This document shows, piece after piece, positions 2,474 to 5,184 of a DNA stretch of 64,000 nt (position 1 is its first letter; every line of letters begins with the position of its first letter). Under the pieces are notes generated by a model. The model worked only from the letters and a program-made list of their open reading frames with translations. It was not told the DNA's origin and searched no databases. This stretch comes from Archangium sp. (GTDB lineage Bacteria; Myxococcota; Myxococcia; Myxococcales; Myxococcaceae): positions 62,001 to 126,000 of the forward strand of contig JALHMW010000001.1 in assembly GCA_022843845.1 (NCBI GenBank). Direction: 5' to 3'. The translations under genes and the position numbers were made by a program.

Positions 2474-2549
2474 CCCCTGCGCGGACGCGACTGCAGATCG
2501 GCAGGAGAGGGCCAAAGCGATGGCTGCCGCAAATCCAACGCGACACTGT

Positions 2550-2572
2550 CAGTCGAGACTTTTTCTCGACTG
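2550..2572. promoter_or_regulatory. 9-bp perfect inverted repeat upstream of the RloA/RloB-like pair
   Basis: The arms CAGTCGAGA and TCTCGACTG are separated by CTTTT, giving a perfect 9-bp stem with a 5-nt loop in the 160-bp gap before the ATPase gene. There is no T-run after the right arm, so it is a poor intrinsic terminator for the plus strand. An operator, an attenuator or a weak terminator of the upstream gene are all possible. The position, about 60 bp before the ATPase start, fits regulation of the defence-like pair. Confidence 0.4.
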
Positions 2573-2633
2573 GAGAGCATCTGGACACTAGCAATGAGAC
2601 TCTTGGGGCGAACTACCGAGAAAGAGGCTCGCT

Positions 2634-3926
2634 ATGTTGATTTCACTCCTCGTTGAGAACTTCCGCTCGTTCGATACTGAGCAAGAGTTCTCGATGCTCG
2701 CGAGTCCGCGCCAAACGAACTTCCCCGACCATCTGGTGGAGGTTCCAGGCCTTGGTGAACGACTGGTTCCGGTTGCTGCGGTCTTTGGGGCGAACGGCGC
2801 CGGAAAGTCGAACCTTGTCCGGGTCCTAAGTTGGGTTCGCGATCTAGTTGTCCACCGCCGACGCTTTCGATTCGACGGCTTTCTCTTCGCGGTGCCCGAT
2901 CGGCCCTCCCGCTTCGAGTTTCGCCTTCTCAAAAACGAACTCGTTCTTCAGTACGGAGTCACTTGTGGTCACGAGGGAATTCGAACCGAATGGCTGAGCA
3001 CCGTGTCGGCCAACGGCCGCGAGAAGATCGTATTCGAACGCCGGACAACGCCAAATGGCCCGACGGAGATCGAGTTCGGCAAGGACCTCGAGGGCTCGAC
3101 GGAGAAACTCGAGGCTGTACGGGTCTTGGGCGTCAGGGCCCCTGACTTGGTTCTCTCGAAGCTCGGCCGCGAGCTGTCTCCTGTCGAGCTGCCACCCCAG
3201 GTTCAGGCCGCATACTCGTGGTTCCGAGCCCTAACTGTCGTTGGTCCCGATGCGCCCTACAGCGTGCTCACCGAACGGCTCCACGAAGAGGCCGAGTTCC
3301 GCGCATACGCCTCCGATCTTCTCCGACGACTCGACCCGACGATCAGCGGCGTCCAAGCAACAACGAAGCGACTTGCAGTTGAGGACCTTCAGCCATTCGT
3401 TCGGGATCGTCTCGCCGACCTGGAAAGCGGGGAGTCCGCCCGGATACTGGGGCGTTCTCTTCTGAAGGTGGACGACCACCACGTCGAAGAACGTGAGGTG
3501 ACGCTTGAGCACATCGGGCCCAGCGGAGAACTGAAGTCACTCGACTTTGCCCAGGAGTCCGACGGGACGAAACGACTCGTACACGTGGCTCCGACTGCGT
3601 TCGATGCAGCGGTTGATGACGTTGTCGTTGTAATCGATGAACTCGACAGAAGTCTGCATGCGCTCCTCGCGCGCGAGTTCGTCGTGGAATTTCTCCGTCG
3701 CGCCCGGGGGCACCGCAGCCAACTAATCTTCACGACTCACGAAACCCATGTGCTCGACCAAGACCTTCTGAGGAGGGACGAGGTGTGGTTCGTCGAAAAG
3801 AACGCGCAAGGCGCGACCGAGCTGCACAGCCTTGATGACTTCAAGGTGCGAAACGATCTGCGCCTCGACAGGAGCTATCTGCTCGGTCGCTTCGGCGGGG
3901 TCCCTCGACTGGGAAGCCAACCGTGA
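2634..3926 (+). CDS. AAA/ABC-type ATPase, RloA-like (AAA_15/AAA_21 family), putative phage defence
   Basis: A 430-residue ATPase of the family that opens with a conserved ENFRSF strand. Walker A is FGANGAGKSN (residues 51-60). The ABC-like signature is ESDGTKR, Walker B is VVVVIDELD with D335-E336, and the switch histidine is in FTTHETH (H369). The layout is that of OLD/RecF-like ATPases such as RloA and PARIS AriA, which pair with a Toprim partner. An RloB-like Toprim gene follows and overlaps the end of this one, as expected for such a pair. Base composition is less GC-rich than the surroundings: bases 2641-2700 and 2941-3000 have 30 and 31 G/C of 60, against 46 of 60 at 1801-1860. That supports horizontal transfer. 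Defence function is inferred from the family and pairing. Confidence 0.85.
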   Translation: MLISLLVENFRSFDTEQEFSMLASPRQTNFPDHLVEVPGLGERLVPVAAVFGANGAGKSNLVRVLSWVRDLVVHRRRFRFDGFLFAVPDRPSRFEFRLLKNELVLQYGVTCGHEGIRTEWLSTVSANGREKIVFERRTTPNGPTEIEFGKDLEGSTEKLEAVRVLGVRAPDLVLSKLGRELSPVELPPQVQAAYSWFRALTVVGPDAPYSVLTERLHEEAEFRAYASDLLRRLDPTISGVQATTKRLAVEDLQPFVRDRLADLESGESARILGRSLLKVDDHHVEEREVTLEHIGPSGELKSLDFAQESDGTKRLVHVAPTAFDAAVDDVVVVIDELDRSLHALLAREFVVEFLRRARGHRSQLIFTTHETHVLDQDLLRRDEVWFVEKNAQGATELHSLDDFKVRNDLRLDRSYLLGRFGGVPRLGSQP

Positions 3927-4545
3927 GTCTGCTGTCGCGAGCCGCGAGGCCGTTAGGCAGAACAGAAGGGAACGCGACGACCGGATGTTCGTCATCGCGA
4001 CCGACGACACCTACGCACCTCGCCAGTACTTCGAGGCATTCAACCTGCAGCGCATCAAGATTCACGTCGTAGCGACTGACAATGGTCGGTGCGCCGCAGC
4101 TGACGTGCTGACTCGAATGAAAGAGGTCATCGAGGACGGCAGGGCGCGAGGAGACCTTCGCGACGACGATCAATTCTGGCTGGTGCTCGACACCGACCAC
4201 TATACCCAGGGCACTCACGTGCCGGCGTTCAAGTCTGCGCTGAAGGAAGCGTTGGAGGCCGGAATCCGAACGGCGGTGAGCAAGCCCTGCTTCGAACTCT
4301 GGCTGCTTCTCCACGTGCGAGAAGTGAAGGAGCAGTTCGAAAACGCTGATGAAGTGGCTGCAGCGCTGCAGGCGGAACTAGGTGCCTACAACAAGACCAA
4401 TGTTCCCGGAGCGCAACTCGTCCCGAACGTAAGGCTCGCGATCACGAGGGCGCGAACGCTCGATGTTGGCGTCGAGGGTGGTTGGCCACAGAACACTGGC
4501 ACACAGGTTCATCTTCTTGCGGATCAACTCACGACGGGCCCTTGA
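3835..4545 (+). CDS. RloB-like Toprim protein, partner of the ATPase
   Basis: RloB-family proteins are small Toprim-fold proteins encoded next to RloA-type ATPases in defence loci. The diagnostic late motif KPCFELWLLLH is present (about residues 150-160), as is an acidic DTD at the DxD position of the Toprim fold. The first Toprim motif is unusual: where relatives carry C-E-G-x-x-T-E-x-x-Y-F, this protein has T-D-D-T-Y-A-P-R-Q-Y-F, so the usual glutamate aligns with aspartate. The start is uncertain. The conserved part begins before the ATG at 3985, and the only earlier in-frame starts are TTG 3832 and ATG 3835, which overlap the ATPase gene by about 90 bp. Composition matches the ATPase, so the two probably arrived together. 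Confidence 0.75.
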   Translation: MTSRCETICASTGAICSVASAGSLDWEANRESAVASREAVRQNRRERDDRMFVIATDDTYAPRQYFEAFNLQRIKIHVVATDNGRCAAADVLTRMKEVIEDGRARGDLRDDDQFWLVLDTDHYTQGTHVPAFKSALKEALEAGIRTAVSKPCFELWLLLHVREVKEQFENADEVAAALQAELGAYNKTNVPGAQLVPNVRLAITRARTLDVGVEGGWPQNTGTQVHLLADQLTTGP

Positions 4546-4599
4546 ACGACTGAGGGCCTTCGCACCTCATCGCCTCACGACGATCGCTGCGCGGGTGAC

Positions 4600-5184
4600 G
4601 TGACTGCGCGCGCGTGCGACGGTTCGCCCATCGTGTTCACCCTTCTCATGTGCTCGGTGCTCGCGCAGGCGCCTTCCACTGCATCAGGCGAACGGTCCGC
4701 CACGCTCGTCGAAGAGCGCCCCACGACAGCGCAGCTTCGATGGCGTGCCGTCATCGCGCCGTTGAGCGCCGTGATGGGCACCAGTACCGGCGTCGGCATC
4801 GGGCTGGGCATCGGGTACGGCCTCGGCCTGCTCGTCGACGCCATCGCTCCACCGCGCGGCGCGGCTCCACCGCTTCAGCTCTTCGGGAGCGTGCTCGCTG
4901 CGGTCGGCGTCATCATCGGCGGCGTCATCGGGTACCTGCTGGGAACGATCGGCCCCGGCGGACTCTACGAAACCGCCGTCTCGGCCCGGAAGCGCGCCAT
5001 CCCCTTCGCTGCGCTCATCACCGTCATCGCCGGAGCCGCGTGGCTCATCGCAGGTCTCACCGGCGTGTTGGTGGCCGCGCTCCCCTGGCTCATCATCGGG
5101 AGCGCCGCGTTGTCGATCGCCGTGCCGATTCTCGGAGACGCCACCCGGCCCCGACTCGAAGGCCTGCCAGTCGTGGTGTTCTGA
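4600..5184 (+). CDS. Hypothetical multi-pass membrane protein
   Basis: About 194 residues if read from the GTG at 4600; a later in-frame GTG at 4633 would give a start directly at the hydrophobic stretch FTLLMCSVLAQA, which resembles a signal peptide. Four or so further hydrophobic segments are present, including glycine-rich ones (GVGIGLGIGYGLGLL and a GVIIGGVIGYLLG stretch), separated by short polar loops. I recognise no family. It lies 54 bp after the RloB-like gene but has the high-GC codon use of the host, so it is more likely a resident gene than part of the insert. Confidence 0.55.
   Translation: MTARACDGSPIVFTLLMCSVLAQAPSTASGERSATLVEERPTTAQLRWRAVIAPLSAVMGTSTGVGIGLGIGYGLGLLVDAIAPPRGAAPPLQLFGSVLAAVGVIIGGVIGYLLGTIGPGGLYETAVSARKRAIPFAALITVIAGAAWLIAGLTGVLVAALPWLIIGSAALSIAVPILGDATRPRLEGLPVVVF

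Follow-up and report, generated by a model that had tools for sequence, protein, structure and literature searches.

Whether an ABC-type ATPase gene and the RloB-family gene that follows it in Archangium sp. together form a working phage defence module is the question raised by the locus described here, which lies in a 64,000-nucleotide stretch of DNA (the window) in contig C1. The reading that we consider probable is that the pair is a horizontally acquired AbiL-type (RloA/RloB) abortive-infection module whose effector is inactive in this genome. The pair and its surroundings comprise the following features:

2474..2633, + strand: intergenic leader 5' of rloA, starting just after the upstream stop codon
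2480..4560: low-G+C segment (60%) coinciding with the pair, from a 2-kb G+C scan
2634..3926, + strand: rloA / abiLi-like gene for a 430-aa ABC-type ATPase (AAA_21/AAA_15), a putative sensor, from Pfam, PADLOC, predicted fold and motifs
3923..4545, + strand: rloB / abiLii-like region, an RloB-family, Toprim-like presumed effector nuclease with its frame displaced near the 5' end, from PF13707, PADLOC and frame analysis

The first gene runs from an ATG at 2634 to a stop codon at 3924-3926, and base 2474, which the initial annotation gave as the start of the pair, lies in intergenic DNA just past the upstream stop codon; the leader at 2474..2633 contains no sigma-70-type promoter pattern. RloA matches Pfam AAA_21 (E 1.8e-25) and the PADLOC models for AbiLi (E 5.6e-77, covering residues 1-428) and AriA (E 7.8e-26). 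An ATPase with every motif intact had been claimed, and this was borne out: Walker A (GANGAGKS, 2787-2810), the signature (SDGTKR, 3558-3575), Walker B (VVVVIDE, 3621-3641) and the H-loop (TTHETH, 3732-3749) are all kept. Departures from the family occur at 6 of 52 near-invariant columns and leave the key catalytic residues unaffected, and 7 of 54 alignment rows diverge at as many or more of these columns. The predicted structure (pLDDT 91.9) resembles the ABC heads of PtuA, OLD, SMC and Rad50, and a family profile searched against solved chains recovered PtuA (E 1.1e-6) and PARIS AriA (E 6e-4); searches of solved structures with the single sequences returned no match for RloA or RloB.

The second gene, on the same strand and immediately downstream, belongs to the RloB family (PF13707, E 5.7e-26; PADLOC AbiLii, E 1.7e-16), and its family frame ends at 4543-4545. 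It had been described as an RloB-like Toprim protein; the RloB part of that description stands, and the Toprim part draws on a published HHpred relation of RloB, equated there with AbiLii, to OLD_TOPRIM (PMC10440598) and on predicted topology. The RloB model (pLDDT 92.6) has the strand and helix order expected of Toprim, in which motif I falls where strand 1 (predicted at 18-24) ends and the DxD motif (D87, D89) where strand 3 (predicted at 81-87) ends, but with Asp replacing the motif-I Glu, and the model superposes on that of a viral RloB-like protein with a TM score of 0.70. A Foldseek search of the PDB with the RloB model returned nothing with E below 0.001, the RloB family profile gave chance matches only among solved chains, and hhalign against five OLD Toprim domains was non-significant (E 0.32), in a register that aligns the motif-I and DxD sites. 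Because these fold and profile comparisons are non-significant, we label the protein Toprim-like rather than Toprim.

Identification of the pair as RloA plus RloB and as a candidate phage defence module holds on Pfam, PADLOC, fold and profile grounds. Among the closest described arrangements is AbiL (AbiLi/AbiLii), an abortive-infection system of Lactococcus lactis (Deng et al. 1999, cited through PMC10440598 and PMC3985639): here, as there, a gene for an AAA_21/AAA_15 ABC-type ATPase is adjacent to and followed by an RloB-family gene, and the AbiL models are the best PADLOC models for both. Unlike the Lactococcus lactis system, the window pair is chromosomal, in a high-G+C genome with relatives in Myxococcota; it is also distant in sequence, its RloB frame is displaced, and its motif I is of an ED type with Asp in place of Glu. 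The proteins share their families (PF13707) with RloA/RloB of Campylobacter type I restriction loci, but unlike those loci neither the flanks examined here nor most related loci carry type I restriction genes; no hsd or other type I restriction genes were found among the scanned neighbors of the window pair, and assignment to such a locus therefore failed. PARIS (AriA/AriB) likewise combines an ATPase sensor with a separate nuclease effector, roles that are putative here, but the window effector is of the RloB family and not AriB: RloB had no AriB match among PDB sequences and PADLOC returned AbiLii only, so that membership in PARIS, which calls for an AriB-type effector, was rejected. RloA also shares its ABC ATPase fold with Septu/PtuA and OLD nucleases; unlike in the window pair, the Toprim domain of OLD is held within one protein and the Septu partner is an HNH nuclease.

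A homologue scan of 84,980 genomes yielded 80 loci, in nearly all of which an RloA homologue lies directly upstream of RloB. Adjacent RloA and RloB are distributed over more than ten phyla, with most pairs lacking type I restriction genes nearby, and the closest relatives (38-44% identity) belong to Planctomycetota, Kiritimatiellota, Gemmatimonadota, Myxococcota and others. The window proteins group with those of the same genome of the same family, G007, in the trees of both RloB (support 93) and RloA (support 95), and the pair therefore moves and evolves as a unit. We examined 108 neighboring proteins at 20 related loci and found type I restriction subunits and AbiEi only in single members. 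Given this rarity, an AbiL pair without restriction genes is normal for the family, and we rejected an association with restriction genes as a family rule; the stand-alone arrangement, which the initial annotation had suggested, is the usual one, neither special nor new. Distant RloB family proteins are also encoded on small, mostly mobilizable Klebsiella and Escherichia plasmids (~40 records, e.g. NZ_CP079812.1, a Klebsiella plasmid of ~5 kb).

The pair is horizontally acquired and of foreign origin. Across 126 kb of the contig it is the lowest of 1,240 2-kb windows, at 59.9% G+C against a mean of 67.3% (sd 1.5%), and rloA and rloB each have 60%. Third-position G+C is 0.68-0.70 in the pair, 0.85 in the gene to its left and 0.92 in the M16 peptidase gene downstream. 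The markedly lower G+C reported at the outset is thus beyond chance, but the counts of 30-31 of 60 (~50%) on which it was based overstate the difference relative to the 60% of the genes. Comparison of relatives at the locus pointed the same way, with no RloB match in six other genomes of the genus, RloB in 10 of the 195 genomes searched from the phylum, and different surrounding DNA in the nearest relative, G006. The M16 peptidase of G006 is 97% identical to that downstream of the pair, and DNA similarity resumes at window base 4615 rightwards and at -1160 leftwards (negative positions lie left of the window), with 3 kb in between unrelated. The two outcomes that the initial annotation had named as counting against it, a host-like copy in all relatives and a second protein without an RloB match, were not observed.

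The pair had also been taken for a two-gene insert between host-like genes. The genes immediately to the left are indeed host-like in composition, yet they have no DNA match in relatives, and the pair therefore sits within a larger variable segment. This segment, defined by comparison with contig C349 of G006, spans window -1160 to 4615 (contig C1 60841-66614); in G002, a block corresponding to C1 52683 to 67200 is absent and ~600 bases stand in its place. No tRNA gene was found within the window, and no convincing repeats mark the ends of the insert. A large gene at window -1076 to 1608 (~895 aa) encodes carboxypeptidase-regulatory-like repeats, has no DNA match in the genus and probably specifies a surface protein. 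Between it and the pair, the gene at 1613-2470 is weakly similar to a PseG sugar-nucleotide hydrolase model (E 0.0035); its identity to proteins of relatives is only ~30%. Farther left, contig C1 57793-58404 (window -4207 to -3596) encodes an SMI1/KNR4 (SUKH-1)-like protein just below the Pfam cut-off; this family is often tied to toxin immunity.

These data bear on the proposal that the pair serves a housekeeping or DNA-repair function and not phage defence. The ATPase fold occurs in SMC and Rad50 heads as well, and the flanks of the 20 related loci hold mostly ordinary genes; the scattered occurrence of the pair, its foreign composition and its patchy inheritance speak against such a function, as does the derivation of the best-matching family models from phage-resistance genes, and we regard it as very unlikely. 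An AbiL-type abortive-infection module remains our preferred identification; the reading frames of rloB are as follows:

3923..4072, + strand: frame opened by a GTG at the conserved start position (GTGA overlapping the RloA stop), 49 codons, TAG at 4070-4072, from its N-terminal match to relatives
3985..4545, + strand: main RloB frame from its sole nearby ATG, which would start within the first beta strand, from a start-codon survey and the predicted strand 18-24 (numbering from 3931)

In nine coupled close relatives the RloB start lies in an NTGA that shares bases with the RloA stop. The first ~13 residues of the GTG 3923 frame, VSLLSRAARPLGR, match the RloB N-termini of relatives (L064, VSLLGRKPPRIGR), and this frame clearly encodes the N-terminus of RloB. 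When scored against eight family N-termini, the GTG 3923 value was reached in one of 50,858 15-codon windows of the + strand, the number expected if the GTG 3923 site itself accounts for it, and the main RloB frame over the same stretch scored no better than shuffles. Seven of the nine close relatives have 84 nt between the start and the motif-I Glu codon, and the other two have 72 and 87 nt. Here the distance is 80 nt, which is not divisible by three and, relative to the family value of 84, is not merely a one-base shortfall; because of this spacing the GTG 3923 frame stops after 49 codons. The main frame has only TTG 3832, ATG 3835 (both deep within RloA) and ATG 3985 as start codons. The two genes had been said to overlap; GTG 3923 does overlap the RloA stop, but the frame that it opens ends at 4070-4072, and the two do not overlap as intact, coupled genes. 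A working AbiL system calls for an intact, translatable effector gene, and the conserved start of this one yields a 49-codon product; rloB as sequenced is broken near its 5' end.

Two overlapping frames that each hold recognizable RloB sequence could be joined by programmed -1 frameshifting to give full-length RloB. The overlap of the two rloB frames contains no slippery heptamer of the form X XXY YYZ, on which account we reject this explanation, and the arrangement is not the rule in any other surveyed family member; we judge it extremely improbable. The frame displacement might instead be a genome assembly error in a functional AbiL-type defence system. The main RloB frame is free of stops for ~200 codons, its G+C by codon position is normal and RloA is intact. 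Three related assemblies also show isolated frame breaks (rloB of L124 and L140 and rloA of L073, among the 80 related loci), whether through defence-gene decay or assembly error, and such breaks keep an error in contention here; rloB copies with an intact frame were found in other relatives. Against an error, uncompensated single-base or other frame-changing length differences between the window and G006 are few over ~29.8 kb aligned. We regard this explanation as possible but on balance unlikely, in part owing to the residues at and around the presumed active site:

4003..4005, + strand: GAC (Asp) at the near-invariant motif-I (Toprim) Glu position, from an alignment of 95 RloB proteins
4189..4197, + strand: DxD motif (Asp-Thr-Asp), kept, with the first Asp in 95/95 and the second in 94/95 proteins

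Of the 95 aligned proteins, 91 have Glu at the motif-I position and the window copy alone has Asp. Two RloB relatives, L143 and L152, have Gly in this column (CGG not CEG), another active-site variation. The SxPCFExW motif is retained in the window RloB, which deviates at 5 of 27 near-invariant columns (E25D, S54C, P56A, W91Y and N118K); the family median is 0, and just two outlying proteins exceed the window copy. A single assembly error would not produce five such changes, the motif-I Glu among them, and a pure assembly error is thus less likely as the whole story. Judged from the alignment, the substitutions fit relaxed constraint on RloB.

An altered RloB could nevertheless be made from ATG 3985 or ATG 3835 and be active with Asp in place of Glu. 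Asp can coordinate metal as well, DxD and SxPCFExW are both retained, and ATG 3985 lies just 5' of the conserved core. Initiation there would forfeit the conserved basic N-terminus, and initiation at ATG 3835 would add ~29 residues from the overlapping frame of RloA; moreover, 79 of 84 related loci have an RloB start near the RloA stop, which the main frame here lacks, and in AriB replacement of the motif-I Glu by Ala abolishes activity (PMC12409363). An active altered enzyme therefore seems doubtful, and quite unlikely.

A second feature of motif I divides the family. Gly comes directly after the motif-I residue in 79 aligned proteins, of which 76 have a second Glu five residues beyond the first; 15 proteins, the window copy included, have Asp after the motif-I residue and lack the second Glu. 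This ED type (E-D-T-[HY]-A, versus E-G-x-x-T-E elsewhere) spans several phyla, and those of its members present in the RloB tree cluster together (support 93). Since conserved acidic residues bind the metal in two-metal Toprim enzymes (PMC10568477, PMC12409363), the metal site of the ED-type subclade may differ. The window pair might then represent a subclade with a rebuilt metal site, which may use a different chemistry or target and may still work with Asp, an interpretation that we advance tentatively and consider unlikely.

Our preferred interpretation, an acquired AbiL-type module with a probably inactive effector, takes its defence role and its sensor-effector mechanism by analogy from PARIS and AbiL. 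In PARIS, AriA keeps AriB inactive until phage proteins trigger its release, and AriB is a Toprim tRNase that cleaves tRNA and requires its Toprim Glu, the E26A protein being inactive (PMC12409363). In E. coli, a Fusobacterium homologue of AbiLii proved toxic, and AbiLi did not neutralize that toxicity (PMC3985639). We came across neither a solved structure of RloB nor a description of its target. By this analogy, the RloA/AbiLi ABC ATPase would assemble as a sensor restraining the RloB/AbiLii nuclease, a phage trigger would free or activate the nuclease, and active RloB/AbiLii would cut host nucleic acid (tRNA in PARIS) and abort infection. In this genome rloA is intact, but rloB as sequenced is frame-displaced between its conserved GTG and the remainder, with Asp at what would be the catalytic Glu position, and on both counts the module is probably inactive or at best equipped with an N-terminally altered effector. 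Several points count against this interpretation: the main RloB frame is stop-free over ~200 codons, unlike what old decay would leave; a frameshift in one genome can stem from assembly error; AbiLi failed to neutralize AbiLii in PMC3985639; and fold and profile comparisons gave RloB no significant Toprim match. The pair had been treated as intact; given the displaced frame and the motif-I Asp, the window copy is doubtful as a defence system and is most likely an ATPase without a working effector.

For the family, these results mean that AbiL-type pairs are widespread, with RloA/RloB traveling as a unit over more than ten phyla and usually without restriction genes, and that a distinct RloB subclade has an altered active-site motif, whose intact members would suit studies of the target. 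Adjacent, recognizable defence genes do not by themselves prove a working system, because the frame of the effector may break where family searches miss it.
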